From IMG/VR virus record IMGVR_UViG_3300025012_000155, positions 1 to 45,543 of that record: a stretch of 45,543 bases of DNA, one strand, 5' to 3'. Position numbers and translations under genes: made by a program. Source of the DNA: a virus. Below the pieces are notes generated by a model, which ran no database searches, was not told the origin of the DNA, and saw nothing but the letters and a program-made list of their open reading frames with translations. Positions 1,487 through 13,872 of the stretch are shown piece after piece. Positions within the stretch are counted from its first letter, which is position 1, and every line of letters starts with the position of its first letter.

Positions 1487-1504
1487 ATCGAAAGGGAGAA
1501 TATC

Positions 1505-1807: not shown

Positions 1808-1853
1808 TGATCATTGCTGGCATAAATCAAACATTCAATTCAGGAGGTAGGCA

Positions 1854-3203
1854 GTGGAAACAAAAAAGGGACTCACAATAATTGAATTTGCAGCTGAGAA
1901 CTTTATGAAGCTGAAAGCGGTTCGCATCCGTCCGGATGGCGCGAACATGGTCGTTCTCAGCGGGAAAAACGGGGCGGGGAAGAGTTCGATTCTCAATGCA
2001 ATCATGGCGGTCGTCGACAAGGCGGCACTCAAAAAGCAGGGGATCACGAAGCTTTTGCGCGAAGGTCAGGAGCGGGGATTTGTCAAGATCGACCTGGGCG
2101 ACATCATTGCAAAGTTGACGCTCACGGAACGCGGGGAATACCTCACGGTCGAGAATAAGGAAGGGATGGCGTTTAAGTCTCCGGCTGGCGTCATGGACCG
2201 TCTCCGGGGTATGATCTCCTTCGATCCCCTGGCTTTCGCAAAGATGGACGCGAAGAAGCAGAAGGACATTCTCCTCGGGCTGGTCGACGTGGGTATTGAC
2301 CTGGATGTACACGACAAGGAACGTGCGCGTATTTTCGACGAGCGGACCAATGTCGGCCGGAAACGGGACGAGCTTAAGGGGAAACTGGCGGATCTGCCAA
2401 ATCTCCCTGCAGATCTTCCGGAAAACGAGGTTCCGCTTTCATCCGTATCGGAAGAGCGACGGCAACTGGAAGCGGTCAAAGCAGAGAATGACACGCGCCG
2501 GAAGGAATACAGCGATCTCAAGGAACGGTATCAGTCGACGAAGTATCAGCACGAGGCGGCTCGTCTGGAGTGGGAGCAGATCGAAGCTCAGATAAAAGAG
2601 CTGAGGGGGAAACAGGATGTTCTTTTTCAGAAGGGTCAACATCTGGCGAAGGAAGTCCAGAAGATAGAGGAAAGCGGGAAGGGACTCAAGGCAGCGGTTG
2701 ACGCTCTTGTCGATCCGGACTTTTCTATTCTTGACACGCGCCTCGAAGAGATCGAACAGACGAACCAGGCGGTTCGGGAGAAAAATCGTCGGGAGCATAT
2801 CCGCCAAGAGGCTAACCTTGCCAACATTTCTTATGTTCGAATGACCGACGAATTGTCCACGCTCGATAAGAAAAAGACCGATGCTCTTGCTGCGGCAAAG
2901 TTCCCGGTCGAAGGGCTCGGTTTTAATGCGGAGGGGATCACATTCAACGGCCTTCCTCTCGACCATGCTTCCGACGGCGAAAAGCTCACGGTGTCGGTTG
3001 CAATCGGGATGGCTCTCAACCCGGAGTTGCGCGTTCTCTGGTTCAATCATGGGGAGATGCTTGATTCCGACAATTGGGCGATCATTGAGAAGCTTGCTGG
3101 GTCTGAGGAATATCAGGTGTGGGCCGAGAGAATGTCGGAAGATCCGTCGGTCGGAATTCATATCGTCGATGGGGAGATTTCGGGGGAGGTAGCCAATGGA
3201 TAA
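1854..3203 (+). CDS. RecF/SMC-like ABC ATPase of the recombination module
   Basis: The start is GTG 1854 behind CAGGAGGTAG. The 449-residue product has a RecF/SMC architecture. A Walker A motif (SGKNGAGKSSILNAIM) lies near residue 40, a long coiled coil spans about 165-345, and an ABC signature-like DGEKLTVSVAIGMAL sits near 380. Where a Walker B DE is expected the sequence reads LRVLWFNHGEMLD, so the usual acidic pair is missing; I recall similar variation in phage homologues of this family. Proteins of this type tether or process DNA ends with a nuclease partner, here most likely the 417 gene. The end overlaps the next start by 8 bp, indicating coupling. Confidence 0.85.
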   Translation: METKKGLTIIEFAAENFMKLKAVRIRPDGANMVVLSGKNGAGKSSILNAIMAVVDKAALKKQGITKLLREGQERGFVKIDLGDIIAKLTLTERGEYLTVENKEGMAFKSPAGVMDRLRGMISFDPLAFAKMDAKKQKDILLGLVDVGIDLDVHDKERARIFDERTNVGRKRDELKGKLADLPNLPADLPENEVPLSSVSEERRQLEAVKAENDTRRKEYSDLKERYQSTKYQHEAARLEWEQIEAQIKELRGKQDVLFQKGQHLAKEVQKIEESGKGLKAAVDALVDPDFSILDTRLEEIEQTNQAVREKNRREHIRQEANLANISYVRMTDELSTLDKKKTDALAAAKFPVEGLGFNAEGITFNGLPLDHASDGEKLTVSVAIGMALNPELRVLWFNHGEMLDSDNWAIIEKLAGSEEYQVWAERMSEDPSVGIHIVDGEISGEVANG

Positions 3204-4092
3204 CGAAATGGTCAAGACAACAGGCGGGGCTCTTGTCCAGACCGAAAGCAATCGGGCAATTGCAGAGGTTCAGGCTGCAATGATTCTGGCTCGACAGTTT
3301 CCCCGCGATACACAGGCGGCACTGGACAAGATGCTTGTCGCTTTTCAGCGGAAAGGGCTCGCGGAAGTGGCGCTCTATTCTTACAACAGAGGGGGGACGG
3401 AGATCACCGGTCCTTCTATTCGGGCTGCGGAGGCTATTGCCCAGAATTGGGGAAACCTTCAATTCGGCGTGCGGGAACTTTCTCAGAGCAATGGGGAGAG
3501 TACCGTCGAGGCTTTCGCCTGGGATGTGGAAACGAACGTGAGACAGGTCAAAGTGTTCCAGGTTCCCCATGTAAGAGGAAAGCGGTCGGGCAATGTCAAG
3601 CTCACAGACCCCCGCGACATTTACGAGCTTGTTGCAAACCAGGGGGCGCGGCGTCTCCGGGCTTGTATCCTGGGCGTCATCCCTGGCGACATTATCGAGG
3701 CCGTATGTGAACAAACCGACACGACCTTGAAGGCTACGGCGGACACTTCGCCGGCAGCACTTAAGAAGCTGGTCGAAGTCTTTACTTCCTACGGTGTTAC
3801 TCAAGAGATGATCGAGAAGAAGATTCAGCGGCGGTTAGAAGCTATCACTCCGGCGCAGATCGTCAACCTCCGGAAGGTCTACAACTCCCTGAAAGATGGG
3901 ATGAGCAAGCCGTCTGATTGGTTCGAGGATATCAAAGACCCTGCAGCGGTGGGTGCGGCAAAGGATCTCATGGGCCGTTTCGGATTTAAGACCGATGAAA
4001 ACAAGCCGGCAACCGACGAGCCCATGACCTGTGAATTCTGCATTCCGGAGAATGGTCAGCATCAGAGCGCATGTCCTAACAGGGAGGAGTGA
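3196..4092 (+). CDS. Conserved phage recombination-module protein (possible ssDNA annealing factor)
   Basis: The 298-residue product has the conserved phage signature AIAEVQAAMILARQFPRD near residue 22, then LYSYNRGGTEITGPSIRAAE and AQNWGNLQFGVREL at 70-105. I know this family as an uncharacterised protein often encoded beside phage RecE-like nucleases. That synteny suggests a single-strand annealing role like RecT, but no fold evidence is visible here. The C-terminus ends in a short Cys/His stretch (CEFCIPENGQHQSACPNREE), a possible zinc ribbon. It overlaps the ATPase gene upstream. The role is inferred from neighbours only. Confidence 0.75.
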   Translation: MDNEMVKTTGGALVQTESNRAIAEVQAAMILARQFPRDTQAALDKMLVAFQRKGLAEVALYSYNRGGTEITGPSIRAAEAIAQNWGNLQFGVRELSQSNGESTVEAFAWDVETNVRQVKVFQVPHVRGKRSGNVKLTDPRDIYELVANQGARRLRACILGVIPGDIIEAVCEQTDTTLKATADTSPAALKKLVEVFTSYGVTQEMIEKKIQRRLEAITPAQIVNLRKVYNSLKDGMSKPSDWFEDIKDPAAVGAAKDLMGRFGFKTDENKPATDEPMTCEFCIPENGQHQSACPNREE

Positions 4093-4096
4093 CATT

Positions 4097-4231
4097 ATGG
4101 CAAAAAAAGAGGACTGCTCAAATTGCGAATATGCCAGTACGAAAACGTCTGAACCTCCGTGTTCCGAGTGCATGGAAGAGTTTTGCAAGCCGGACGGGGA
4201 GACATACTCGGAGTGGCAACCCAAGAAGTGA
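4097..4231 (+). CDS. Small Cys-rich protein, probable zinc ribbon
   Basis: This 44-residue protein starts at ATG 4097 behind GGGAGGAGTGAC. It has two CxxC pairs (CSNCEYA and PCSECMEEFC), a likely zinc-binding fold. Many phage early operons carry such miniature zinc-ribbon proteins of unknown role. It is the last gene before the attC-like palindrome at 4241. Confidence 0.6.
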   Translation: MAKKEDCSNCEYASTKTSEPPCSECMEEFCKPDGETYSEWQPKK

Positions 4232-4240
4232 ACGCGCCGG

Positions 4241-4288
4241 AATAACGGGCTAGAGTCCAGCGGCTAGTCCGCTGCTGCGGGAGTTATT
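4241..4288 (+). other. attC-like palindromic element
   Basis: Outer 6-bp arms AATAAC (4241-4246) and GTTATT (4283-4288) are perfectly complementary. Each is followed inwards by a 5-nt unpaired spacer (GGGCT and CGGGA). The core is a perfect hairpin, CAGCGG-CTAGT-CCGCTG. Complementary TAAC/GTTA outer boxes, 5-nt spacers and an inner stem are the layout of integron attC sites, although clear L boxes are weak here. The right-hand segment GCGGGAGTTA recurs exactly in the element at 12718. An alternative is a simple intergenic hairpin. Confidence 0.45.
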
Positions 4289-4305
4289 AAACCAAGGAGG
4301 ATTCA

Positions 4306-5292
4306 ATGGGAAGAAAGAAGATTGAAGAAGAAGTTGCAGCAACGGATGCACTAGCAAGAGGCGCGGAAGATATCCGGCAAGAGTGCGAAGAAGATCCGGA
4401 GATATTTGAACACGGCGAGGACGATGCGCAGTGGGCGAGTATTCCGGATACTGAGGAAGTCGACAACCCTTGGGACGTTAAAGAAGTGGTTAAAGCCAAG
4501 GTAAATTTGTGTGCTGACTGTCTCTACGCTTTTGCAACCTGTGACAGCAAACCTGTATTCGGCTGCGACGACGGCGGCGAACCGACAGATGACAACGTGA
4601 CCATGTGTGACGGATATGTCCCCAGTGGCGATTTCGCCGACGCTTCCACCTCCATCCCTGAAGTTCAGGAGACGGTCATTATCGATCTGCCGATGAGCGA
4701 CGTGTTTACGCATCCCCTCCCGGTGTTCCTCACTGACGTTGAACTCGGCTGCTACTCGAAGCATCAGGCCGAACTCTGGACGAAATGGGGGCGGCTCAAT
4801 CAGCAGAAGAAGGACAGCGCAAAAGCTTACGGTGATTCGATCAAGAAGGTAGAGGACGAACTGGACGAGGTTTCTCGTATCGTCGAAGAGGGCTCAGAAG
4901 AGAGGCCGGTTGAATGCCGCTGGCTGTTCGACTATCAGCACGGTATCAAGAAGCTGATTCGCCTGGACAAGAACATCGTCGTCGAAGAGAAGACGCTGAC
5001 AAAGGAAGAGCTTGATACCTATCGACAGCCGACACTTTTGGATGACGTCGAAAAATCCGTTGCAGCGGTCGAAGAGTGTTTCGGACATACGGATGCCAGC
5101 GCCGAAGACGGAGAACCTGTTGAGGGCGAGATTTGCCCTACGGAGGACGGTAATTTATTTGATGGTTCTTCTGCCGTAGAAGAAGATCCCGAAATGGAGG
5201 CGGCGGTGAACATTGCTGAAGAAGCTGTGTTTTCCCGTACTCACAAGAATCTTGACGACGAATGGCCGCTGAACGTACCGGGGGAGGTGTGA
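4306..5292 (+). CDS. Acidic phage protein of unknown function
   Basis: The 328-residue product is strongly acidic at both ends (many Glu/Asp between 1-60 and 260-328). Residues 65-105 form a Cys-containing patch ([30 protein letters not shown]) that could bind metal. A helical middle region, about 150-240, contains [24 protein letters not shown] and [21 protein letters not shown], which I have seen as a stand-alone small phage protein of unknown function. The gene may be a fusion of a Cys-rich module and that module. It starts at ATG 4306 with AAGGAGG and ends in an ATGA overlap with the next gene. Confidence 0.7.
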
Positions 5293-5954
5293 TGAAAGCG
5301 CCAACGATTGGAGAAAGATTCGGGATGCTTGTTGTTTTGGAACTGGCACCTTCTGACGGGAAAAATAAAAGATTTGTATGCGTTTGTGACTGCGGGAACG
5401 TGAAGGCCGTCGCCAACCACCATCTTACACAGGGAAGAATGAAAAGCTGTGGATGTGGCAGGATTAAGCACGGCCACTGCAGATCAAACACAAGATCTCA
5501 CGAATTTACCGTGTGGAACTCTATGCGGCAACGCTGTAACAATCCACATAGCAAACGTTACAAGGATTATGGCGGCAGGGGGATAACTGTTGATTCCAAA
5601 TGGGACAACTTTGAAGCCTTCCTTGCTGACATGGGGACGGCTCCAGCGGGTTACGAACTTGACCGCATCGACAATGACAAAGGCTATTCAAAAGAAAACT
5701 GCAAATGGTCCACGCCAAAGGAGCAATGCAGAAACAGAAGATCCAATACGTTCCTCACCCACAATGGACGCACGATGATAGCTGCGGACTGGGCAAAGGA
5801 GTTAGGCGTCCCGAATACTACCTTGCACTCCGCTCTCTCCAGTGGGCACACGCTTTCCGGGTTTATTTATCGGCTTGAGCACGGGTTAAAGAATAAGAAG
5901 CTCAATGTGAATAGGATCGGAAATCGTGTGGGGGTTGGCAATGTTCAAGCGTAG
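5292..5954 (+). CDS. HNH-like phage protein with N-terminal Cys module
   Basis: The start is ATG 5292, overlapping the previous TGA and preceded by GGGGAGG. The 220-residue product has an N-terminal segment with CVCDCGN and CGCGR, a zinc-binding-like region common in phage DNA-binding proteins. A conserved block follows at about 75-150: WNSMRQRCNNPHSKRYKDYGG, TVDSKWDNFEAFLADMG, ELDRIDNDKGYSKENCKW and KEQCRNRR. This is the recurrent phage family annotated as HNH or homing-endonuclease-like, where the D-x-I-D-N stretch resembles an HNH second strand, but the catalytic His is not obvious. The C-terminal 60 residues look like a DNA-recognition helix (IAADWAKELGVPNTTLHSAL). Possible homing activity is inference. 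Confidence 0.7.
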   Translation: MKAPTIGERFGMLVVLELAPSDGKNKRFVCVCDCGNVKAVANHHLTQGRMKSCGCGRIKHGHCRSNTRSHEFTVWNSMRQRCNNPHSKRYKDYGGRGITVDSKWDNFEAFLADMGTAPAGYELDRIDNDKGYSKENCKWSTPKEQCRNRRSNTFLTHNGRTMIAADWAKELGVPNTTLHSALSSGHTLSGFIYRLEHGLKNKKLNVNRIGNRVGVGNVQA

Positions 5955-6297
5955 CAGCAATAAATCATTTGCGCTCGGTCGACTGAAGACTGGGCAACTC
6001 AATAAGACCGAGGAGCAATATCGCGTTTATCTGGATATGCTCAAGATGGCCGGCGAAGTCCTTTGGTATCGCTTCGAGGGTCTGAAACTGCGGCTTGCGG
6101 ACAACACGTTTTACACTCCCGACTTTGCGGTAATGCTCTCGAACGGGCTGATTGAACTTCACGAGGTCAAGGGCTTTTGGCAGGATGATGCTCGGGCAAA
6201 GATAAAGATTGCTGCCGATATGTACCCGTTCCGGTTCCTGGCTGTAAAGGTCAAACCAAAGAAGGACGGCGGCGGCTGGGAGTGGGAAGAATTCTAA
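5941..6297 (+). CDS. DUF1064-type PD-(D/E)XK nuclease
   Basis: The ATG at 5941 lies inside the end of the preceding gene and has GTGGGGGTTGGC upstream. The 118-residue product shows the DUF1064 pattern: TEEQYRVYLDMLK near 24, then YTPDFAVM and ELHEVKGFWQDDARAKIKIAADMYP around 65-95. The PD...ExK residues match a small restriction-endonuclease-like fold. In other phages this family sits in replication modules and is presumed to cut branched or recombination DNA intermediates. Its context here is the same. The catalytic residues are intact. Confidence 0.82.
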   Translation: MFKRSSNKSFALGRLKTGQLNKTEEQYRVYLDMLKMAGEVLWYRFEGLKLRLADNTFYTPDFAVMLSNGLIELHEVKGFWQDDARAKIKIAADMYPFRFLAVKVKPKKDGGGWEWEEF

Positions 6298-6331
6298 TAC
6301 TGTGGCGCCGGGGTAACAGCCGGCGCGTATT
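6296..6331 (+). other. Intergenic hairpin
   Basis: GCGCCGG (6305-6311) pairs with CCGGCGC (6320-6326) around the loop GGTAACAG. The flanks AATAC (6296-6300) and GTATT (6327-6331) also pair, with a 4-nt bulge on the left. There is no T run, so it is not a typical intrinsic terminator. It may be an mRNA processing or stability element between the nuclease gene and the next small gene. Confidence 0.55.
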
Positions 6332-6346
6332 CTGAGGAGGCGAACC

Positions 6347-6499
6347 GTGAAGGATCATGTCCACAAATTTTACAGGACGGCAGAGGTTAAGCATTATCCG
6401 AAGCGGTTCAATTTCAAATCAAGCGCCGTCGGCAGCGTAAAAACATATCGTAAATACGTCTGCATACTGTGCAGATGCGAAGATTGGAGGGAAGCGTGA
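6347..6499 (+). CDS. Small basic protein with CxxCxC motif
   Basis: A 50-residue frame begins at GTG 6347 behind a strong GAGGAGG. It is rich in Lys, Arg and His and ends with CILCRCEDW, a possible metal site. The stop overlaps the GTG of the next gene (GTGA), which supports translation. No family recognised. Confidence 0.55.
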   Translation: MKDHVHKFYRTAEVKHYPKRFNFKSSAVGSVKTYRKYVCILCRCEDWREA

Positions 6500-6744
6500 A
6501 CTGCCTTATCTCCGCAGACATGCCGCTTGAACGCTGTACGCAGCTCAGGCGGCACACCTTGAAATGCCGCGAATGCACCGGGAAGCAGACCAGGGATATT
6601 ATCATTCCGGACGTTGACGCTGCCGATTACGAAATGCTGCGACAGGCAGCGAAAAAGGACGGCAAAGACGTTATCTCCGAACTCAAGCGGCTCATCCATG
6701 AGATGGCGGATACGGCGCGGACCGGGGAAAGGCGGGCGGTATGA
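6496..6744 (+). CDS. Small Cys-containing phage protein, replication module
   Basis: The chosen start is GTG 6496, overlapping the upstream stop and behind GGAGGG. A more upstream ATG at 6469 lacks a ribosome site. The 82-residue product has Cys at 3, 14, 24 and 27 (including CRECTGK) and a helical C-terminal half (DYEMLRQAAKKDGKDVISELKRLI) that could be a ribbon-helix-helix or coiled segment. The end overlaps the initiator gene by 4 bp. Function unknown. Confidence 0.6.
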   Translation: MNCLISADMPLERCTQLRRHTLKCRECTGKQTRDIIIPDVDAADYEMLRQAAKKDGKDVISELKRLIHEMADTARTGERRAV

Positions 6745-7502
6745 GCGACGGATGGGTGAAGGTCTATCGCAAAGTTCAGGATAATTGGCTTTGGCATCAT
6801 CGGCCTTTCTCTTACGGACAAGCGTGGATCGATCTCGTTATGATTGCAAATTACAAGGAGGGGTACATTTACCCGCGTAATGTGCAAATCCGCATTGAGC
6901 GCGGTCAGGTGGGCTACAGTATTCTGCAACTGGCCGCTAGATGGGGATGGGGAAGAACTGCAGTGAAAACTTTTTTGAACAGGCTCGAAAGTGCGCATCA
7001 GATTGTACAACAGAATAATAAGCTAAGTAGTGTAATTACAATAATAAAATACGAAGAGTATCAGGAAACCGTGCAACAGACTGAGCAACAACCGTGCAAC
7101 AGCCGTGCATCAACCGTGCAACAACCGTGCACTAACAAGAAAGAGAAGAAGGATAAGAAAGAAAAGAAAGAATCTTTAGAAGCTAGTGTCGATCAGGATA
7201 AACCTTCTCGACCAACGCCAGCAGCGAAGATGCCAGATGAAGAATGGCTTGCAAGCCTGAAATCGAATTCTGCCTACGAGGGGATCAGCATCGAAGTGCT
7301 ACACGGAAAGATGTTGGCATGGTGTCAGTTAAAAGGGAAGAAGCCGACACGCGCCCGCCTTCTGAACTGGTTGAACCGGGAAGAGAAACCAATGACAGGG
7401 AAAACGACAACAAGACAGACCGCGGACGATATTCGCCGGCAGAATCATGCAGATGCCAGGGACTTCGTGGAATCGGCAGCCAGGGGGGAATTCTCGCGAT
7501 GA
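6741..7502 (+). CDS. Phage replication initiator-like protein (DnaD/O type)
   Basis: The 253-residue product has an N-terminal winged-helix domain typical of phage replisome-organiser proteins: SDGWVKVYRKVQDNWLWHH, then SILQLAARWGWGRTAVKTFLNRLE, a recognition helix near residues 60-85. A low-complexity linker follows at 110-150 (Gln/Thr/Cys repeats, then a KEKKDKKEKKE run). The C-terminal 90 residues are charged (LNWLNREEKP). The linker DNA is an iteron array plus purine-rich tract, the same layout as lambda gene O with its internal origin. The start overlaps the upstream gene, and the stop overlaps the radical SAM start (ATGA). It would bind the origin and recruit helicase through the downstream loader-like gene. 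Confidence 0.75.
   Translation: MSDGWVKVYRKVQDNWLWHHRPFSYGQAWIDLVMIANYKEGYIYPRNVQIRIERGQVGYSILQLAARWGWGRTAVKTFLNRLESAHQIVQQNNKLSSVITIIKYEEYQETVQQTEQQPCNSRASTVQQPCTNKKEKKDKKEKKESLEASVDQDKPSRPTPAAKMPDEEWLASLKSNSAYEGISIEVLHGKMLAWCQLKGKKPTRARLLNWLNREEKPMTGKTTTRQTADDIRRQNHADARDFVESAARGEFSR
7068..7133 (+). repeat. Iteron array inside the initiator gene (candidate origin)
   Basis: Direct repeats of ACCGTGCAAC or close variants start at 7068, 7080 (degenerate, ACTGAGCAAC), 7091, 7102 (GCCGTGCATC), 7113 and 7124 (ACCGTGCACT). The period is 11 bp after a first step of 12. Because 11 is not a multiple of 3, the reading frame shifts through the repeat, so the repeat is conserved as DNA and not as peptide. 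One helical turn per repeat fits protein binding on one face of DNA. Confidence 0.8.
7134..7185 (+). promoter_or_regulatory. Purine-rich, A-rich tract next to the iterons (candidate unwinding element)
   Basis: Immediately after the iterons the strand is almost pure A/G with many A residues (AAGAAAGAGAAGAAGGATAA, then GAAAGAAAAGAAAGAATC). It codes for the KEKKDKKEKKE linker. In lambda O the iterons are likewise followed by an A-rich region that melts. Assignment as a DNA unwinding element is by analogy. Confidence 0.55.
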
Positions 7503-8317
7503 AGAAGATCATCCGTGTATTCCCTCGACGGACGAATGCCACGCCAGATGATGAACTGGTACGGATAAACTGCGCTCCGAATCTCTTCGATGAGGCAGAC
7601 GAGGTGCATGTGTCGGTGGCGTTCACCTGGGATTTACCGCAAGCGGATCGGTTGGCCGAAGCATGGCGCTGTGTTGCTTCGGTGAAGATCGGAGGACCGG
7701 CAACCGGTGACAGGGGGGGGGAGTTCATACCGGGGATGTACGTCAAGCCGGGGTATCTCATTCACTCCAGGGGATGCCCAAACTCCTGTTGGTTCTGCTG
7801 CGAACGGGAAACAGAACTGGAATTGTTGACCATCCATGAAGGTTACAACGACATATCGAGTAACCTGCTGGCGTGTCCCGAGGATCATATCAGAAACGTC
7901 TTCTCAGCAATGGAGCGGGGCAAGAAGATTTATGGACGTGCGCCTGAGTTCACCGGAGGGCTGGAAGCGAAGCGGCTGGAATGGTGGCACGTTCAGGAGC
8001 TGCGGAAACTGAAACCGAAGCAACTCTTCTTTGCCTATGACACGCCTGATGATTGGCACTGGTTGTATGCGGCAGGGTGGATGCTGATATGTGGAGGATT
8101 CACACTCACAAGTCATGCACTCCGCGCCTATGTCTTGTGCGGCTATCCGAAAGACACATTCGAAGCGGCAGCAAGGCGGATATGGGAAACCAGGCAATGC
8201 GGATTCATGCCGATGGCAATGCTGTACCGCGACCAAAGCGGCAGGCGCGATCCTGAGTGGATGAAGTGGCAACGACAATGGGCAAGGCCGGCGATTATTG
8301 GAGGAAAGCAGGGATGA
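7499..8317 (+). CDS. Phage radical SAM-like protein
   Basis: The ATG at 7499 overlaps the initiator stop. The 272-residue product has SRGCPNSCWFCC near residue 95, the CxxxCxxC signature that binds the 4Fe-4S cluster of radical SAM enzymes. Before it, residues 1-85 look like a shrunken Rossmann or B12-binding-type lead-in (VHVSVAFTWD, VASVKIGGPATG) without the DxHxxG cobalamin motif. After it come strand-like stretches (KPKQLFFAYDTPDD, MLICGGFTLTSHALRAYVLCGYPKDTFEAAARRI) fitting a partial TIM barrel. No auxiliary-cluster Cys set is clear. The substrate is unknown; nucleotide, tRNA or DNA modification would fit the replication setting. Confidence 0.75.
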   Translation: MKKIIRVFPRRTNATPDDELVRINCAPNLFDEADEVHVSVAFTWDLPQADRLAEAWRCVASVKIGGPATGDRGGEFIPGMYVKPGYLIHSRGCPNSCWFCCERETELELLTIHEGYNDISSNLLACPEDHIRNVFSAMERGKKIYGRAPEFTGGLEAKRLEWWHVQELRKLKPKQLFFAYDTPDDWHWLYAAGWMLICGGFTLTSHALRAYVLCGYPKDTFEAAARRIWETRQCGFMPMAMLYRDQSGRRDPEWMKWQRQWARPAIIGGKQG

Positions 8318-8706
8318 AATACGACAACCTAGACGACGTGCGAAGATTTGCCGCCGCTATCAACTGGCTCGGGGAGAAGTTCCAGCGAACGGTCAACGGT
8401 GAACCACAGCCGGTGCGACTGAGCAAGCCTGACATGAAAGACTTGTTTGATGCGCTCTCCGACTTTCCGATCCAAAAGATCGAATGGGCCGCGAAGGAGT
8501 ATTTCAAGGAAGGGAAGTATTTCCCGAAGCCGCGAGACATCCGGGAACTGGCAAAGTGTGCGCCGGCTCCACAGGTGGAGAATAAACCGCTGCGACTGTT
8601 GGAGGATCTGACGCCACCGGAAGAGGCAAGGGAAAAGCTCAAAGAGATACTTCAAGGGCTGGATGATAAGTTTGGGACGACGCTCTCGGAGAAGGTCGAA
8701 GGCTGA
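8314..8706 (+). CDS. Possible helicase-loader-like replication protein
   Basis: The best start is ATG 8314, overlapping the previous TGA; an earlier ATG at 8257 would give a long overlap. The 130-residue product is helical. Residues 1-75 include DDVRRFAAAINWLGEKFQ and DFPIQKIEWAAKEYF, followed by YFPKPRDIRELAKC. That last pattern recalls the YxP-x-I-x-x-I region of small phage loader and G40P-type proteins encoded after an initiator. No Walker motifs are present. The role as a loader is inferred from size, pattern and position. Confidence 0.55.
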   Translation: MKYDNLDDVRRFAAAINWLGEKFQRTVNGEPQPVRLSKPDMKDLFDALSDFPIQKIEWAAKEYFKEGKYFPKPRDIRELAKCAPAPQVENKPLRLLEDLTPPEEAREKLKEILQGLDDKFGTTLSEKVEG

Positions 8707-8721
8707 AGGTTTATCAACGGT

Positions 8722-8737
8722 TTCTACTACCATAGAA
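8722..8737 (+). promoter_or_regulatory. Recurrent TTCTACTA-type palindrome, copy 1
   Basis: TTCTACTACCATAGAA has TTCTA/TAGAA arms and sits directly before the AGGAGG that serves the gene at 8752. Related copies occur at 13128, 15730, 20323 and 37418, always just upstream of a gene. It could be an operator, or an RNA hairpin affecting the adjacent ribosome site. Confidence 0.5.
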
Positions 8738-8751
8738 GGAGGTTAGTTGTA

Positions 8752-9084
8752 ATGGCTGAACGGGGAATAGACGCTCTTGGGTACATGCTTACAGAAGAAG
8801 GGCGCATCGTGGCGATCAGGAATAAGCAGATCAAGCATCTGAGCCACATCAAGTACGACGAATTGAACAGCGGCAGGCGGACTCTGCTCATGGTTCCGAA
8901 AGACCTTATGCACGAGGGGTGGGAGCTTGGATGGGACTGCGTAACCTGTCGCGGGAATGGTGTCACTGCCGATTCGTGCTCGTGCGCGAGTCATCATATC
9001 AACAGCGGGGCATGCTGTGACGGGACGGTTGAGACGAAATGTCCTGACTGTGAGGATGGCATTCGGTGGGAAGATAAGTATTGA
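8752..9084 (+). CDS. Cys-rich DnaJ-type zinc-finger protein
   Basis: The 110-residue product starts at ATG 8752 after GAAGGAGGTTAGTTGTA. The C-terminal half has CVTCRGNGV, SCSCASHH, ACCDGTVETKCPDCEDG, which resembles the CxxCxGxG zinc-finger repeats of DnaJ. The N-terminal half (LGYMLTEEGRIVAIRNKQIKHLSHIKYDEL) looks like a small beta domain. Such zinc-ribbon proteins are common phage accessory proteins. No enzyme motif is visible. Confidence 0.65.
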   Translation: MAERGIDALGYMLTEEGRIVAIRNKQIKHLSHIKYDELNSGRRTLLMVPKDLMHEGWELGWDCVTCRGNGVTADSCSCASHHINSGACCDGTVETKCPDCEDGIRWEDKY

Positions 9085-9113
9085 TAACGGTCAGTTATAA
9101 AGGGGGTGCATCA

Positions 9114-9545
9114 TTGAAACGCTATGTTATTGGATTCGCATTTACGCCGAATCGTCTCCAGGTGGCTTTGATCCTGCGGGAATGGGCGACGGAAGAATCT
9201 TCCTGGCAACTTGGCAAGATGAACGGCCTCGGGGGAAAGATCAAGCCGGGGGAGATACTTTCAGATGCAATGGAGCGGGAATTCGGGGAGGAGTCGGGGG
9301 TAACGATTCCTGCGGAGCGGTGGCAGTATCGGGGCGTCTATCTGAAGGCGGACGAGTGGAAGGTGTTTGTCTTCACGGTCTTTGACGATCTGGTTTACGG
9401 AGTGCGGACGAATTCGGAAGAGGGTAAAGTTCAGCTCGTGGGCGTGCCAAATCTTAGTTATTTACCGGTGGTGGCGAACGTTCGATGGCTCGTGCCGATG
9501 CTGCTTAACAAGGATCTCAAATCATTTGAAATGGAGGAAGTTTAA
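9114..9545 (+). CDS. Nudix hydrolase
   Basis: The Nudix box is complete at about residues 40-62: GGKIKPGEILSDAMEREF followed by GEESGV, matching G-x5-E-x7-RE-x-x-EE-x-G with the RE position slightly varied (MEREFGEE). The family hydrolyses nucleoside diphosphates linked to another moiety, such as oxidised dNTPs or ADP-ribose. The frame is open from TTG 9081, but TTG 9114 has AGGGGGTG six bases upstream and is preferred (143 residues, starting LKRYVIGFAFTPN). A role in nucleotide-pool cleaning or NAD-related defence is plausible; the substrate is not determinable here. Confidence 0.85.
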   Translation: MKRYVIGFAFTPNRLQVALILREWATEESSWQLGKMNGLGGKIKPGEILSDAMEREFGEESGVTIPAERWQYRGVYLKADEWKVFVFTVFDDLVYGVRTNSEEGKVQLVGVPNLSYLPVVANVRWLVPMLLNKDLKSFEMEEV

Positions 9546-9546
9546 C

Positions 9547-10011
9547 ATGGAGAAAAAAGTGCTTTTGACGACAGGTGGAGAGGTGATCATTCCCATTCCT
9601 GACGGGGCAACGGTTGACGCTGATGAGGGATGGTTCAAGCCTCTGGCAAATCCCTTTCTTCACGGCTGCTGCGACTGCGGGCTGATGCACAAGGTCGAGT
9701 ATACCCTTTGCGACGATAACGGTGGTGAGATTTCGCTTTCCGAACGTGCCGGACTGGTGCTTCGCTTTTCCAGGGACAGTGCAGAGACGGTGCATCTCAG
9801 GCAGAAACAGGCGATGATAAAACTGATGAACATGACTCCTCAGCATCACGAGGCGGTCAACTTTCTGGATCAATCGGTTCCTGCCGGCCTGGTAGAAGAT
9901 ACGACATTCAGCGGGGTAGCGATCAAGGATCTATCGCGGGAATCGCTGCTCAAGCTGGTGGCGCTGCTGGCTGCGGGGAAAAAGGAAGAGAGCCGGATAA
10001 TTCGGATTTAG
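9547..10011 (+). CDS. Phage protein of unknown function
   Basis: The 154-residue product starts at ATG 9547 with GGAGGAAG upstream. Residues 25-55 contain GWFKPLANPFLHGCCDCGLMHKVEY, a possible metal site (HGCCDC...H) with conserved aromatic residues. I recall this HGCCDCGLxH pattern in phage hypothetical proteins. The C-terminal third is helical. It follows the Nudix gene closely. No function assigned. Confidence 0.65.
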   Translation: MEKKVLLTTGGEVIIPIPDGATVDADEGWFKPLANPFLHGCCDCGLMHKVEYTLCDDNGGEISLSERAGLVLRFSRDSAETVHLRQKQAMIKLMNMTPQHHEAVNFLDQSVPAGLVEDTTFSGVAIKDLSRESLLKLVALLAAGKKEESRIIRI

Positions 10012-10072
10012 ATAACGGGTAGCCGGTGACCCGCGCAGCGAAGCGGAGTCGGCGTCTATAGGCGGGTTATGT
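10011..10072 (+). other. attC-like palindromic element
   Basis: ATAAC (10012-10016) directly follows the stop codon TAG and is complementary to GTTAT (10066-10070). Inside is GCCG...GAC pairing with GTCGGC, around an inner stem of CCGC/GCGG type (10030-10046). The 62-bp size and TAAC...GTTATG ends match integron attC sites, though the right-hand spacer is longer than usual. The next gene begins 25 bp beyond. Confidence 0.45.
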
Positions 10073-10096
10073 AGCGGGGGCGGATCGGAGATACGA

Positions 10097-10462
10097 ATGT
10101 TGAGAGATAATGACGAATATCGCAGGATTATGAAAGAGCTGGGGCCACCACCGTTGCCGCCAATTGATGTCCTTGTAATGCAGGCGATGCGAGATGATTG
10201 CATTGACCGCTTTAAAAACAATGGATACGGGTTGCAACAATTTATGCTCCGGGATGATGTTTCCGCCGTAATAATGGGAACGCTAACAACAGATATTGCC
10301 GATAAACTAGGGTTGACTACAGCACAAGCACGATCTGCCTTGAATTTGCTCCGAAGCCGTGGGCGAGTGCTGAAATACACTGACGGCCCTGGCTGTACGT
10401 CTCGCTGGTGGCCAAAGGGATTATCTGAGGAACTGGAATCATGTAGCCGTGGCAGCAGGTAA
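10097..10462 (+). CDS. Small winged-helix-like protein in a cassette-like unit
   Basis: The 121-residue product begins at ATG 10097 with a weak GGAG site. The C-terminal half carries LTTDIADKLGLTTAQARSALNLLRSRGRVLKY, a clear helix-turn-helix/winged-helix pattern, ending with SRWWPKG as wing. The N-terminal half is helical. It stands alone between two attC-like palindromes, as cassette ORFs do. It is likely a DNA-binding regulator with unknown target. Confidence 0.6.
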   Translation: MLRDNDEYRRIMKELGPPPLPPIDVLVMQAMRDDCIDRFKNNGYGLQQFMLRDDVSAVIMGTLTTDIADKLGLTTAQARSALNLLRSRGRVLKYTDGPGCTSRWWPKGLSEELESCSRGSR

Positions 10463-10529
10463 TGCCCCAGTAGATATTATGCTGCTATCCGGGAGCGTCT
10501 TTTGACAAGGGCGGGGTAGCTGGGGAGCT

Positions 10530-10633
10530 ACATAACGGGGCGGCGGATTAGCGGCCCCCCGCTTGCGGGGGACTGACTCGATCCGTTGGTTCCGCATCGT
10601 TGCGCGGGTGACGGAGTGACCATGTTGTTAACG
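10530..10633 (+). other. Gene-free GC-rich palindromic region with attC-like ends
   Basis: The gene-free stretch from 10463 to 10749 holds ACATAAC at 10530, a strong stem CCCCCGC-TT-GCGGGGG (10556-10571) and GTTAACG at 10627 followed by a second GTTAAC. It ends in an A run and has no T run, so it is not a plus-strand terminator. The TAAC and GTTA ends suggest an attC-like element, but inner pairing is poorer than at 12718. Confidence 0.35.
10534..10554 (+). repeat. Left copy of a perfect 21-bp inverted repeat
   Basis: The 21 bases from AACGGGGCGG to GATTAGCGG are the exact reverse complement of 11284-11304. The pair bounds a 771-bp segment that holds two small genes. Confidence 0.9.
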
Positions 10634-10688
10634 TTAACAAAAAAGTATCGAAGTAGAGGGCGGAAGCAACGAACCGCCAGGGTGTAGG

Positions 10689-10706
10689 GGTTTAAATCCC
10701 GCGCGC
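10689..10706 (+). repeat. Left copy of a perfect 18-bp inverted repeat
   Basis: GGTTTAAATCCCGCGCGC is the exact reverse complement of 11262-11279. It is nested inside the 21-bp pair. On the right the two blocks are 4 bp apart, while on the left they are 134 bp apart, as if DNA had been inserted between them. Confidence 0.9.
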
Positions 10707-10749
10707 GGTTTTGACTTTACAGAATGGCCGGAGGCCATAGGGGGTGCGA

Positions 10750-10944
10750 ATGTCGAGAAGGTATCAAGTTGAGGTTGTTGAGTGTGGTACAGATTGCCCC
10801 GCCTTTTTGGAGGATGGATACGCCTGTGGCATTCATTCTTGCTCGATGCATGAAGAGGATATGCCTGCTGAGATGTTTCAGGAAATGGTGCAGGAAGATA
10901 AACAGTTTCCAGATTTTTGCCCACTGGTAGAGATGGAGGACTAA
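10750..10944 (+). CDS. Small Cys-rich protein inside the inverted-repeat segment
   Basis: ATG 10750 has AGGGGG just upstream. The 64-residue product carries EVVECGTDCPAFLEDGYACG, HSCSMHEED and FPDFCPLVEMED, four or more Cys plus His that could bind a metal. I have seen similar small proteins in phage and accessory regions, without function. It is followed after 3 bp by the next gene, so the two form a pair. Confidence 0.55.
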   Translation: MSRRYQVEVVECGTDCPAFLEDGYACGIHSCSMHEEDMPAEMFQEMVQEDKQFPDFCPLVEMED

Positions 10945-10947
10945 GCG

Positions 10948-11232
10948 ATGAACGATATTTTCCCTGAAGATACAGCGTGTTGCTCTGTTGAATTCCCGGA
11001 TTGCGGAGCATTTGGCCCGTGTACCACCAACGAACGAGCCTTACGGCGTTACATCCAGGGCGACCCTATGCCACCGCTTACTTCTGAGCAGCGGGACGAA
11101 TTGCTTGCGGACGCTGATTCCTGCGGCGAAGGATCATTCCCCCGTGAAGAAGCGAAAGACTTTTCTGACAAAGACCTCTGCAAGTGGACGCTGGATGCAT
11201 GGTGGGCATATGTGCGGAGTAACTGCTTATGA
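10948..11232 (+). CDS. Small accessory protein, unknown function
   Basis: The 94-residue product starts at ATG 10948 behind GGAGGACTAAGCG. Its C-terminal part (GDPMPPLTSEQRDELLADAD, then DKDLCKWTLDAWWAYV) resembles a family of small phage and plasmid proteins with the same MPPLT-x-EQRD motif. The N-terminus is Cys-rich. Both genes of this pair lie within the 21-bp inverted repeats. Function unknown. Confidence 0.55.
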   Translation: MNDIFPEDTACCSVEFPDCGAFGPCTTNERALRRYIQGDPMPPLTSEQRDELLADADSCGEGSFPREEAKDFSDKDLCKWTLDAWWAYVRSNCL

Positions 11233-11261
11233 CCGATTCGGGCCAGGTTTATCGGCCCGAT

Positions 11262-11279
11262 GCGCGCGGGATTTAAACC
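11262..11279 (-). repeat. Right copy of the 18-bp inverted repeat
   Basis: GCGCGCGGGATTTAAACC is the reverse complement of 10689-10706. It lies four bases before the right copy of the 21-bp repeat. Confidence 0.9.
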
Positions 11280-11283
11280 TTAG

Positions 11284-11304
11284 CCGCTAATCCGCCGCCC
11301 CGTT
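11284..11304 (-). repeat. Right copy of the 21-bp inverted repeat
   Basis: The 21 bases from CCGCTAATCC to GCCCCGTT are the exact reverse complement of 10534-10554. The last three bases also begin the strong hairpin at 11302. Confidence 0.9.
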
Positions 11305-11340
11305 CCTCATTCGACGAGCGTAGCGCGGCGAATGAGGAAC
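11302..11340 (+). other. Strong 12-bp stem hairpin
   Basis: GTTCCTCATTCG (11302-11313) and CGAATGAGGAAC (11329-11340) are perfect complements around a 15-base loop ACGAGCGTAGCGCGG. There is no T run. The right arm with its flank (GCGGCGAATGAG) recurs at 11600 in the next palindromic element, showing that these intergenic elements are related. Confidence 0.8.
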
Positions 11341-11396
11341 GGCTTGTAAATAAACAGCGGAGCGTAGCGAAGACCGAGTTGATTGTTTGGTTATGG
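11341..11396 (+). other. Probable attC-like right end before the next small gene
   Basis: The segment contains AGCGGAG, then GCGTAGCGAAGACCGAGTTGA, and ends in GGTTATGGCG (GTTATGG at 11390-11396). The same GGTTATGGCG ends the element at 11592-11641. A clean TAAC partner is not visible, so this copy is degenerate or misread. Confidence 0.3.
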
Positions 11397-11420
11397 CGCG
11401 TTCTCGCCACGGAGGAAAAC

Positions 11421-11594
11421 ATGCGGATAGACGATTTGATTTTGGAGATGGAGAAATTCAAGGAGAAGCACGGAAACTGCATTGTCCGCTATTATGATGA
11501 GGTTGAAGAAAAGGACTTCCGGATAGAGGCGCTTATGCCGGTAAACATTAACACAGCAGAAAAGCCGGTATGGGCGTGTTTTCTGTCTGACTAA
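11421..11594 (+). CDS. Small acidic protein in a cassette-like unit
   Basis: The 57-residue product starts at ATG 11421 behind CGGAGGAAAAC. It reads as one alpha/beta domain (DDLILEMEKFKEKHGNCIVR then YYDEVEEKDFRIEALMPVNI). Its stop TAA is the first three bases of the TAACGG that opens the next palindromic element. No family recognised. Confidence 0.55.
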   Translation: MRIDDLILEMEKFKEKHGNCIVRYYDEVEEKDFRIEALMPVNINTAEKPVWACFLSD

Positions 11595-11641
11595 CGGTGC
11601 GGCGAATGAGAAACAATTTTAGATCAGCGGAGGGGTTATGG
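11592..11641 (+). other. attC-like element between small genes
   Basis: TAAC (11592-11595) contains the stop of the upstream gene. GTTATGG (11635-11641) contains the ATG of the downstream gene. GCGGCGAATGAG and AGCGGAGG with GGTTATGGCG match the preceding element at 11325-11398. Outer boxes pair (TAAC/GTTA) but inner pairing is weak. Confidence 0.4.
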
Positions 11642-11946
11642 CGTGTGACAAATGCGGAGGCGGGTATACAGCGGGGATAGGCAATTACATTGAGTGTGAT
11701 TGTCCTCCCGCTACATCGGCTGGTTATATTTCTGATGACATCAAGGCAGCAATGACGGCCTTGCAAAATGCTATCCCTGGCAATAACTATCATAAATCCT
11801 CAGTGGCTCATCTAGTTTACGCCGCTGCACATTCGGAGGCTGCTAGGTCGGCGTTGAAGAAAATTGCTAACATGGTGATTGAGCCCGGATATGCATACGA
11901 GCAAGCGCTTAGAATGCGTGAAATTGCTCGCGAGGTATTAAGATAA
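11638..11946 (+). CDS. Small protein with N-terminal Cys motif
   Basis: The 102-residue product begins at ATG 11638 behind GGAGGGG. Residues 3-22 have CDKCGGGYTAGIGNYIECDC, a zinc-ribbon-like start. The rest is helical and Ala-rich (AAMTALQNAI, LVYAAAHSEAARSALKKIAN, ALRMREIAREVLR). The stop TAA is part of the TAACGAC that opens the next palindromic element. No function can be assigned. Confidence 0.55.
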   Translation: MACDKCGGGYTAGIGNYIECDCPPATSAGYISDDIKAAMTALQNAIPGNNYHKSSVAHLVYAAAHSEAARSALKKIANMVIEPGYAYEQALRMREIAREVLR

Positions 11947-12036
11947 CGACAAAGCGGACCCGCATGCCGGGTGGTGTGGGGAGGGGGAGAGTGAAGCTCC
12001 CCCTTACCCGATTAGCCCCGGTCGCCACCGTTAGAA
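11943..12036 (+). other. attC-like palindromic element
   Basis: TAACG (11944-11948, including the upstream stop codon) pairs with CGTTA (12029-12033). After an unpaired spacer, GCG-G-ACC pairs with GGTCGC with one bulged G. The centre has ACCCG/CGGGT and GGGGGAG/CTCCCCC stems. Complementary outer boxes, spacer, second boxes and an extrahelical base are attC-like features. It is followed by an A run and then a promoter. Confidence 0.5.
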
Positions 12037-12042
12037 AAAAAA

Positions 12043-12103
12043 TACGCATATTGCATTTTTATTTGAAATACCCCCTTGACAAAGTACGCATTGCGTGTAT
12101 AAT
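12043..12103 (+). promoter_or_regulatory. Sigma70-type promoter with palindromic operator
   Basis: TTGACA (12076-12081) and TATAAT (12098-12103) are both consensus, 16 bases apart. The spacer contains the perfect palindrome ACGCATTGCGT (12086-12096). A related sequence, TACGCATATTGCA, lies 30 bp upstream at 12043. This promoter drives the small gene at 12141 and the HTH gene at 12302. Autorepression by the HTH protein through the palindrome is the likely logic. Confidence 0.85.
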
Positions 12104-12140
12104 GGTAATCAAGATGAACAACAAACCAAGGGGGTACACA

Positions 12141-12305
12141 ATGAGAACTTTAATTATCCACCTGAGAATCACAGCGAAAAGCGGCAAATCATTTTTAACC
12201 CAAACCCGCGAAACCGGCAGATCGGTACATGAATGTCTGAGTAAAGCAGCAGAAGGCTGGGAAGCTGGCGACGAAGTAGCAATAACCGGGTGGTGGGCCG
12301 TATGA
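12141..12305 (+). CDS. 54-residue protein at the head of an HTH-regulated operon
   Basis: ATG 12141 follows CCAAGGGGGTACACA. The 54-residue product (LIIHLRITAKSGKSFLTQTR then SVHECLSKAAEGWEAGDEVA) is a small alpha/beta protein without recognisable family. It is first in an operon with a consensus promoter and operator, and its stop overlaps the HTH gene (ATGA). Unknown small gene followed by a small HTH gene is the layout of anti-CRISPR/Aca operons and of some toxin-antitoxin pairs. Either is inference. Confidence 0.6.
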   Translation: MRTLIIHLRITAKSGKSFLTQTRETGRSVHECLSKAAEGWEAGDEVAITGWWAV

Positions 12306-12538
12306 CAGGTGCAGACCTCCGAGAGACCCGGAAAACGGCGGGTCTCTCGATGAAACAGGCGGCAGAGTTGAGCGGCACACCGTACCGCACTTGGCAGGAT
12401 TGGGAAGGCGGGAAAAGAAGGGTGCCTGGGATAGCCTTTGCATGGCTGGAACTTTACAGTTACCGAAAAATGAGGAGGAGAGAAAATGGACTCGAAGAAA
12501 CTTGCAGCGGCGATACGGGAAATGAAGGCAAAAGTTGA
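12302..12538 (+). CDS. Small HTH (XRE-like) regulator, Aca-like candidate
   Basis: The 78-residue product, starting at ATG 12302, has an N-terminal helix-turn-helix (ADLRETRKTAGLSMKQAAEL then SGTPYRTWQDWEGGKRRVPG). The YRTWQDWE-x-G-x-R-x-VP pattern is typical of small phage and mobile-element regulators, including some anti-CRISPR-associated (Aca) repressors. It probably binds the palindrome at 12086. The tail is basic and then Gly/Glu-rich. It overlaps both neighbours. Confidence 0.75.
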   Translation: MTGADLRETRKTAGLSMKQAAELSGTPYRTWQDWEGGKRRVPGIAFAWLELYSYRKMRRRENGLEETCSGDTGNEGKS

Positions 12539-12722
12539 CGTTATCATGGATGCGGATGTCCCCGAGGTTGAAGCGGTCCGCGAAGATCTCCGCGACGCGA
12601 AAGACCTTCTCGGGGTGTTGGCGCACATCGTGGACGGCAAACCCATTGACAAGGCGTTCGGCTCGCCTGGCGACTGGGGTTACGGAACTGAAATAGGCGC
12701 TGCCCTCGCAAGTAGGGGATAA
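12486..12722 (+). CDS. Small phage protein, unknown function
   Basis: The 78-residue product starts at ATG 12486 behind AGGAGGAGAAA, overlapping the HTH gene by 53 bp. The first 40 residues are helical and charged (DSKKLAAAIREMKAKVDVIM). The end reads GKPIDKAFGSPGDWGYGTEIG. The strong ribosome site supports translation. The stop TAA is the start of the attC-like TAAC box at 12720. Confidence 0.55.
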   Translation: MDSKKLAAAIREMKAKVDVIMDADVPEVEAVREDLRDAKDLLGVLAHIVDGKPIDKAFGSPGDWGYGTEIGAALASRG

Positions 12723-12763
12723 CAACAAGCTCACCGGCTCGCCCGGTGCAGCGGGAGTTAGCC
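12718..12763 (+). other. Best attC-like palindromic element
   Basis: TAAC (12720-12723) pairs with GTTA (12757-12760). Both sides then have a 5-nt unpaired spacer (AACAA and CGGGA), followed by GCT/AGC pairing and a perfect terminal hairpin CACCGG-CTCGC-CCGGTG. R box, 5-nt spacer, L box and hairpin in that order is the textbook attC fold, and the right end GTTAGCC fits GTTRRRY except one base. The upstream stop codon lies within the TAAC. Confidence 0.55.
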
Positions 12764-12801
12764 GCCATCTGCGCGGCCATAACGAGGATGAGGGAGGGGA
12801 G

Positions 12802-12948
12802 ATGAAATACGAATTACCGGATTACGCTGAAATGTGGCGGATAGCCAGCTCGGAAAACGTCAGGCTGCGGGAAGCTATGGAAGCCTATAGGATCACACTG
12901 CGCGACCAATTTGCCATGGCTGCTATGTCTGGTGATTGGGCGGCTTAG
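12802..12948 (+). CDS. Small helical phage protein, ends at an in-frame amber
   Basis: ATG 12802 lies behind GGGAGGGGAG. The 48-residue product contains LPDYAEMWRIASSENVRLRE and ends SGDWAA before TAG 12946-12948. The same frame stays open for 38 more codons and both parts look like one helical protein, so this is either a truncated gene or one read through the amber. No family recognised. Confidence 0.5.
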   Translation: MKYELPDYAEMWRIASSENVRLREAMEAYRITLRDQFAMAAMSGDWAA

Positions 12949-13065
12949 TCTGAAGCAATGCGCGAGTTTACGGACGACACCAAGCAGGAGTTTTTGCAAC
13001 TTCGCGCAACGTTGTATTACCGAATGGCATCGGCCATGATGGAAGCACGGAAGGAGGCACCATGA
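12949..13065 (+). pseudogene. Continuation of the 12802 frame beyond the amber codon
   Basis: After TAG 12946-12948 the frame reads SEAMREFTDDTKQEFLQLRA and YYRMASAMMEARKEAP before TGA 13063-13065. No ribosome site precedes its first ATG (12958). A CAG to TAG change would explain the break. Confidence 0.4.
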
Positions 13066-13112
13066 GCGAAAAGAGCGACCTGCGGGAGAGGGCGAGTAAG
13101 TTGGTGAAGTAA
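13062..13112 (+). CDS. Possible 16-residue ORF
   Basis: AAGGAGG lies a few bases before ATG 13062. The frame MSEKSDLRERASKLVK ends at TAA 13112 and overlaps the preceding stop (ATGA). Only the ribosome site and coupling support it. Confidence 0.25.
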   Translation: MSEKSDLRERASKLVK

Positions 13113-13127
13113 ATTTATCTTGACAAT

Positions 13128-13146
13128 TTCTACTATAGTAGTAGAA
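13128..13146 (+). promoter_or_regulatory. Recurrent TTCTACTA-type palindrome, copy 2 (best copy)
   Basis: TTCTACTA (13128-13135) and TAGTAGAA (13139-13146) are perfect 8-bp arms around TAG. It lies in the 112-bp gap before the terminase genes, just after TTGACA (13120-13125). No good -10 box stands at the right distance from that TTGACA. The position suggests control of the late (virion) operon. Confidence 0.6.
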
Positions 13147-13224
13147 GCTATTTCCCATTAAAAGACATTCTCGCGGTGGGCGGGGATGTTCCAAGTCCGA
13201 TAGCCACAATGGAGCGCATCGGCG

Positions 13225-13872
13225 ATGGATCAGAAACGATCCAAAAACAAAGGCAGGAAAGAGGGGACATCTCCGGGCGGGGGGTCCCCTTCTGCCGTTG
13301 AAGAAGAAAAACCTTTCCTTTTTGATCCCTCCCTCCCCTTAGAGAATGAGCGGCACGAGCGGTTCGTCCTGGAACTGCTCGCGTACAAGTCACAGACTCA
13401 AGCCTACCTTCGAGCCTATCCCAATTCATCTTATGATTCCGCTCGTAATTCCGCGTCCGACCTCATTGCGAATCATTGCGTGAAGGAACGACTCGAATAT
13501 CTCCGCGAAGAACAGAAGACTCGCTGCAAAATGACCGCTGATGAAGTGCTCTTCGGGCTCACTCTCGCGGCTCGTTTTGATCCTGCCGATTTGTATCGTC
13601 CCGACGGGTCGATGATCCCTATTACCGAGCTACCTCCAGAAGTGCGCCAGTGCATCGAGAAGGTTGAATTCGATGAGATATACATGGGCGAAGGCAAGGA
13701 CCGGAAGGTTATCGGGCGGACGGGTAAGGTCCAGGCAATGAGCAAGAAGGCGGCATATGAGCTGCTTGGGAAGGCTCACAAGCTGTTTACGGATAAGGTT
13801 ATTCACGAGCACAAGTTCAGCCTTGAAGACATTCTCGCCGGAGATACTTCAGAGGTGGCGAATGAGAATTAA
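13225..13872 (+). CDS. terS: Terminase small subunit
   Basis: The 215-residue product has the Terminase_2 pattern. Residues 40-95 include RHERFVLELLAYKSQTQAYL and YPNSSYDSARNSASDLIANH, followed by VKERLEYLREEQKTR, a DNA-binding helical domain. An oligomerisation region follows (ITELPPEVRQCIEKVEF, GRTGKVQAMSKKAAYELLGK). It recognises the packaging site and feeds DNA to the large subunit two genes on. The N-terminal 35 residues are Gly/Pro/Lys-rich. Start ATG 13225 has only a weak GGAG 11 bases upstream. Confidence 0.9.
   Translation: MDQKRSKNKGRKEGTSPGGGSPSAVEEEKPFLFDPSLPLENERHERFVLELLAYKSQTQAYLRAYPNSSYDSARNSASDLIANHCVKERLEYLREEQKTRCKMTADEVLFGLTLAARFDPADLYRPDGSMIPITELPPEVRQCIEKVEFDEIYMGEGKDRKVIGRTGKVQAMSKKAAYELLGKAHKLFTDKVIHEHKFSLEDILAGDTSEVANEN

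Follow-up and report, generated by a model that had tools for sequence, protein, structure and literature searches.

Two short palindromes, here called E5 and E0, in a 45,543-base IMG/VR virus record (IMGVR_UViG_3300025012_000155; "the window" below means this whole stretch of DNA) are, judging from their sequence, probably attC-type sites. Each follows a small phage gene encoded on the plus strand but itself lies on the minus strand, and it is likely that these sites and their genes entered the phage as cassette units via an integron integrase (IntI) acting in trans. The window itself holds two worn members of a family; their interest lies in what they led to, namely the observation that attCs oriented against their genes are common in the arrays of virus contigs and rare in bacterial integrons. 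The original prediction, made from the sequence alone, had instead proposed a cluster of attC sites lacking an integrase (CALIN) at 10011–12763.

Two minus-strand sites at the ends of small phage genes

The sites and their upstream genes are listed here with bit scores from a general attC covariance model (R1) and a model of their own family (R2), both introduced below.

12717–12763, minus strand: E5, probable attC-type site antiparallel to the upstream gene (R1 16.4 bits; R2 60.7 bits)
12486–12722, plus strand: 78-aa gene with homologues in ten viral contigs; its stop codon TAA (12720–12722) lies inside the TAAC box of E5
4240–4289, minus strand: E0, second family member and probable attC-type site, more degenerate at L′ and R′ (R2 35.5 bits, E = 1e-8)
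4097–4231, plus strand: 44-aa gene (script gene call) ending 9 nt before E0

In attCs, the outer boxes R″ and R′ follow the consensus RYYYAAC and GTTRRRY and are complementary to each other. Read on the minus strand, E5 consists of R″ (GGCTAAC), the spacer tccc, L″ (GCT[G]CACCGG, the bracketed base being extra) and the loop gcgag, followed by L′ (CCGGTGAGC), the spacer ttgtt and R′ (GTTATCC). The R boxes of E5 and of E0 (TAATAAC/GTTATTC, likewise on the minus strand) share the invariant AAC/GTT and the next T-A pair, their outer bases fitting the consensus and each other only partially. Paired L″/L′ arms with an extrahelical base in L″ are present in E5 and, with one mismatch at the base of the stem, in E0, and the L″/L′ letters of E5 are identical to those of an integron attC (L138:5251–5355). 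The order of R box, spacer and L box that the original prediction described at 12718 thus exists, extra base included, on the minus rather than the plus strand, and its observation of a stop codon TAA within a TAAC box is true of gene 12486–12722 and E5. Its suggested stretch 4200–4300 contains, at 4240–4289, a real relative of the 12718 element.

The general model R1 was built from integron sites. An integron integrase was encoded in 103 of 274 genomes from the class of the host of a related prophage; attCs were extracted by script from the arrays of these genomes and from plasmids, and 50 aligned integron attCs yielded R1. In this alignment, 82.3% of cells were paired under the attC fold, and covariation, of textbook form (0.386 vs. 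0.141 in shuffles), was far above that of slid partners. R1 recovered integron attCs mostly at >25 bits, many of them being training members, and as an outside control returned exactly three sites in phage TJE1 (26.2, 25.6 and 20.7 bits), the number of attCs in the CALIN of that phage (Qi et al. 2023, PMC9892861). In the attC covariance-model search that had been suggested as a check, run with R1, E5 was the best and only notable match in the window (16.4 bits; E = 0.088 for the window, 0.0054 for 9990–12800).

A family of short palindromes of probable attC type

The sequence TAACTCCCGCNGCANCGG is common to E5 and E0 and has two exact matches in the window. Combined with the second arm, it occurred in seven other viral contigs (L156–L162), with a chance expectation below one (an estimate, taking the collection as ~43 Gb). 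A first pattern, AACGGGGCGGCGGATTAGCGG, had no viral match, and 14 of 21 stretches with the 3′ half CCGNTGCNGCGGGAGTTA were set aside as non-members that look like coding coincidences. In each of the seven contigs the element is intergenic, after different genes and mostly near a stop codon. All nine copies keep R″, the 4-nt spacer, L″ with its extra base, L′ and R′, and they covary in the L stem (G-C to C-G, A-U to U-A; 0.170 vs. 0.080 in shuffles).

R2, a covariance model of the seven outside copies with the window excluded, scored E5 at 60.7 bits (5e-17) and E0 at 35.5 bits (1e-8). More telling are its matches outside the family: in 505 kb of integron and phage loci (E ≤ 0.1), 14 of 16 coincided with R1 attCs on the same strand, e.g. 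L127:1515 (34 bits) and the plasmid cassette site L122:7845, and the remaining two were attC-like elements after genes in L163 and L166. As nearly all of these independent matches coincide with R1 attCs, they provide good evidence at the sequence level that the family is of attC type.

Family elements were also paired with other attC-like sites at cassette distances in L160, L156 and L162. For instance, L160 holds a pair of 19.8 and 19.1 bits, ~740 bp apart around a 207-aa gene, and includes the best family member under R1 (L160:1374–1430, 19.8 bits), and L156 combines a 21.6-bit site with a family site. Among homologues of the gene before E5, those in L158/L167 (53% identity) precede a family element, the one in L163 (69% identity) directly precedes a different attC-like element, and in L171 an attC of 38.8 bits stands before the gene; no attC-like site directly adjoins the other homologues. 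The combination that was to have spoken against the original prediction, i.e. no covariance match anywhere together with homologous phages free of the palindromes, was hence not what we found, some homologues having attC-like sites and others none.

Several observations weigh against assigning E5 and E0 to attC. The 16.4 bits of E5 under R1 fall below the 20-bit cut-off of a published attC pipeline (Qi et al. 2023, PMC9892861), as do the 19.8 bits of the best family member, a comparison that is indicative only, as bit scores do not carry over strictly from one model to another; E0 had no R1 match at E ≤ 10. At 47 nt, E5 is among the shortest attCs considered here, and its R″–L″ spacer is 4 nt instead of 5 nt. 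Because E0 and E5 supplied the pattern that led to the seven contigs, their R2 scores demonstrate family membership and not function. The family was not found in host integrons (0 of 399 Pseudomonadota genomes; no good plasmid or phage match), and no phage pair with and without the unit, of the kind that would show a cut at G|TT, was present among the sequences.

In an alternative that we consider unlikely, E0 and E5 are dispersed repetitive palindromes or mRNA hairpins (REP-like, 3′-end protecting or weak terminators) that merely resemble attC. Both sites lie at gene 3′ ends in an operon, where a hairpin would form in the mRNA, they fold only moderately better than shuffles, and their general attC score is low. 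Yet the hairpin-plus-T-run layout of an intrinsic terminator is missing, there being no T-run on the plus (coding) strand over 9990–13250. The family moreover keeps both R boxes, the L spacing and the extra L″ base, its model selects attCs nearly exclusively in half a megabase, and its copies are paired with other attC-like sites.

It is very improbable that chance alone placed TAAC...GTTA pairs around hairpins in every element, including E5: although such pairs are frequent and 10% of shuffles gave at least two matches to the E0/E5 core with up to three mismatches, both real matches have none, the heuristic attC score of E5 was reached once in 1.51 Mb of viral sequence, and the conserved, intergenic structure in seven contigs contradicts chance for E0 and E5.

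Antiparallel orientation in viral arrays

In the usual integron cassette, the attC lies at the 3′ end of the gene and on the same strand. E5, on the minus strand after the plus-strand gene 12486–12722, departs from this arrangement. For an unbiased view, IMG/VR was scanned with two generic attC patterns (the second set containing the first), R1 matches at E ≤ 0.05 were retained, and orientation was called from open reading frames that carry a Shine-Dalgarno site and have their stop codon directly beside the element. Viral contigs had 47 antiparallel vs. 9 parallel sites (17 contigs vs. 2, with six tied or undetermined), whereas the same script returned 32 parallel vs. 2 antiparallel sites for integrons (12 loci vs. 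1). Fisher's test gave p = 6e-14 by sites and p = 5e-6 by loci, the latter being the fair figure since sites within one array are not independent, and a looser orientation caller gave the same picture.

The reversal extends to family copies with a clear abutting gene, to E0 and E5, and to two further contigs (L007 and L025), in all of which the attC and the gene ending beside it lie on opposite strands. For five neighbouring genes the coding strand is backed by homology, i.e. methyltransferases (L007, L202, L203), a radical SAM protein (L162) and a crAss001_48-domain protein (L160). Wrong strand assignment was rejected as a source of the antiparallel calls, since the same model gave parallel calls for plasmid cassettes and TJE1, and the opposite strand of the antiparallel sites was either unreported or at least 13 bits lower. 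Parallel exceptions were TJE1, L211 and L228.

Phage-borne attCs and CALINs as such are already known (PMC9892861). We found no report of a systematic attC reversal in phages in the open literature, a scope to which most subscription papers do not belong.

Arrays and integrases in related viral contigs

Most viral attC contigs carry phage genes, among them head, tail, terminase, polymerase or helicase genes. In L202 (IMGVR_UViG_3300040801_001646), for example, the order is terL, seven attCs, methyltransferase, portal and capsid; within 84–8431 of this contig, the seven attCs (1634–4037) are canonical, have small genes and a DNA methyltransferase among them, and all run against the genes. The closest relative of the window is L002 (terL 91%). 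Relatives of the window by terL also have strong attCs: L007 one of 36.8 bits, and L025 an array of ~6 sites with an exact 367-bp duplication. In the terL relative L153 (IMGVR_UViG_3300048576_000125, 5893–6975), one cassette within an attC array is exactly duplicated (367 bp, 710 bp apart), a sequence feature that we take as a sign of recent cassette activity in a record with no integron integrase.

Two virus-classed records, L203 and L210, encode a full-length integron integrase (416 and 428 bits) next to arrays whose attCs run antiparallel to the genes. The L163 record, the phage contig with the closest homologue of gene 12486–12722, has a truncated integron-integrase-like fragment (136 bits; L232:16–423) at the start of G329, at the contig edge, and the L215 record a weak match (69.6 bits). 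None of the other 25 of the 29 searched records had an integron integrase at E ≤ 1e-20. A terL scan of genome contigs returned two metagenome-assembled genomes only, one of which (PRO3, G001) has an integron integrase (468 bits). This genome contains a prophage related by terL (57%), and an attC of 38.9 bits lies near its integron integrase, with no visible array (L076 / G001 C61; L087:1848–1914).

A possible route into the phage

In the window, no integron integrase (TIGR02249) was detected, the record possibly being incomplete. The best match was the following gene, which by its sequence is an ordinary phage integrase and not an integron integrase.

41019–42077, minus strand: phage tyrosine integrase (phrog_1 integrase, E = 4.6e-36; TIGR02249 22 bits vs. 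a cut-off of 265)

We propose a trans-supplied enzyme because no integron integrase gene was seen in this record. IntI from the host or another element would recognise E0 and E5 and would integrate or shuffle the units, which would have entered the phage as cassettes through integron-type recombination. As the bottom strand of the attC is here the strand of the gene, folding and recombination would involve the coding strand of the phage. Where genes run in the same direction as replication, that strand would be the lagging-strand template and more exposed as a single strand, and this greater exposure could select for the reversed orientation. A broader, more tentative extension is that phages possess a cassette pool of their own, with attCs antiparallel to genes and the bottom strand as coding strand, worked by the IntI of the host or sometimes of the virus, of which E0 and E5 would be worn remains.

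If the reversal is systematic, phage cassettes could not be explained simply as chance acquisitions from bacterial integrons, and would instead constitute a distinct pool of genes assembled by a rule of its own. How phages exchange small genes, methyltransferases for instance, could then be put to the test, as could the long-standing question in integron biology of whether the exposure of strands during replication determines attC orientation. In that case, surveys of integrons in phages should also give the orientation of site vs. gene.

The remaining palindromes and the rest of the window

The TAAC...GTTA pairs listed in the original prediction are present in the sequence, as is the block common to its 11341 and 11592 elements (GCGGCGAATGAG at 11325 and 11599). 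As structured elements, most of them failed when either strand was folded as DNA and compared with shuffles. The 11592 element has no fold (best energies 0 and –0.6 kcal/mol; 200 of 200 shuffles folded at least as well), its right end GGTTATGGCG being the Shine-Dalgarno/ATG of the next gene (11638), and the 11341 and 10011 elements resembled shuffles (z = 0.5 to 1.3 and 0.1 to 0.35, respectively). Only the 11943 (z ~–2) and 12718 (z ~–1.8) elements went beyond them. R1 gave 2.9 bits at 11592, from the R boxes only, and no match at 10530, 11341 or 11943; none of the elements at 10011, 10530, 11341, 11592 and 11943 had a covariance-model match using the L stem. The features of this region are:

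10010–10072, no strand assigned: E1, TAAC...GTTA boxes only (R1 8.4 bits, E = 7.6, R boxes only), folding like shuffles
10534–11304, no strand assigned: segment flanked by exact inverted repeats (an outer pair of 22 nt and an inner pair of 18 nt), enclosing genes 10744–10944 and 10948–11232
11943–12035, no strand assigned: E4, GC-rich hairpin (z ~–2) followed by a perfect sigma-70 promoter (12076–12103), with no attC score

E1 is at best a degenerate attC remnant and is not counted as an attC; its CGCGCAGCGAAGCGGAGTCGGC is near an aadA-type attC core, and its L arms do not pair. E6 (11341, minus strand), whose CATAACCAAACAATCAACTCGG resembles real attC starts, was likewise rejected, as its second half misfits and no model matched. 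The weaker elements at 10530 and 11341 are the edges of the segment bounded by inverted repeats (22 nt, 10534–10555/11283–11304; 18 nt, 10689–10706/11262–11279), which the original prediction had missed. Chance accounts for the 11592 element and probably for the one at 10011; the remaining palindromes are ordinary intergenic sequence, a hairpin beside a promoter, and segment edges.

It is therefore most improbable that the whole of 10011–12763 is a standard CALIN with attCs parallel to genes, as first proposed. Small genes are separated there by TAAC...GTTA palindromes, and phage CALINs exist (PMC9892861), but five of the elements lack an attC stem, and the sole supported site is on the opposite strand, the second lying 8.4 kb away; a CALIN comprises two or more attCs within 3 kb (PMC9892861). 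What survives of the idea of attC-type sites in a phage with no integron integrase is confined to 12717–12763 and 4240–4289, at the level of the family.

Further features were noted in passing. The left repeat copy of the 10534–11304 segment has an extra ~130-nt stretch with a perfect palindrome, TTGTTAACGTTAACAA (10625–10640), and 11300–11342 forms a hairpin with 20-nt arms (90% complementary) and a 3-nt loop. At 12069–12136, the perfect sigma-70 promoter (TTGACA-16-TATAAT) lies between the arms of an inverted repeat (TACCCCCTTG/CAAGGGGGTA), ahead of a helix-turn-helix gene at 12302, and is probably regulated, with operators. Small genes occupy 9.5–13.2 kb, followed by terS (13225) and terL (13897); a morphogenesis block and a recombination/replication block (exonuclease VIII, HNH, Holliday junction resolvase, DnaD-like loader) are also present. 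DNA of 9000–13500 had no match among GenBank phages, no Rfam family reached its cut-off in the window, and a weak atoC match was discounted as evidence on the host. A 27-nt tandem repeat, GCATCATCCGCCACCGGGGACAGTTCC, at both ends (1–216 and 45417–45543) suggests terminal redundancy or a circular assembly. A 20-nt near-palindrome, TTCTTCTGCCGTAGAAGAAG, occurs in six copies (80–100% identical; 5166, 8722, 13287, 15730, 18514, 20323), of which at least those at 8722 and 15730 are intergenic and may serve the phage as a regulatory or replication motif.

Comparison with known systems

Virulent as well as temperate phages have been described with CALINs (Qi et al. 2023, Front Microbiol 14:1091391, PMC9892861). 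The TJE1 CALIN resembles the window in having attCs between small phage genes and no integrase in the phage, with methyltransferase genes in its cassettes; its sites are parallel to the genes at 20.7–26.2 bits, whereas E0 and E5 run against their genes, score lower and are separated by 8.4 kb. With chromosomal and class 1 integron attCs (aadA-type), E5 shares R″, L″ with one extra base, L′, R′, complementary arms and the L″/L′ letters of L138:5251, but differs in its 4-nt R″–L″ spacer, its 5-nt terminal loop and its orientation opposite to the gene. Intrinsic terminators and REP elements are likewise short GC-rich palindromes after genes, yet E0 and E5 lack a coding-strand T-run and have conserved R boxes and an extra base in one arm. 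The antiparallel viral arrays (L202, L198, L203, L213, L227, L153 and others) have the same reversed layout of gene and site, small genes of unknown function and DNA methyltransferases; they differ in that their attCs are canonical, high-scoring and in true arrays, with L203 and L210 sitting on integron-integrase records.

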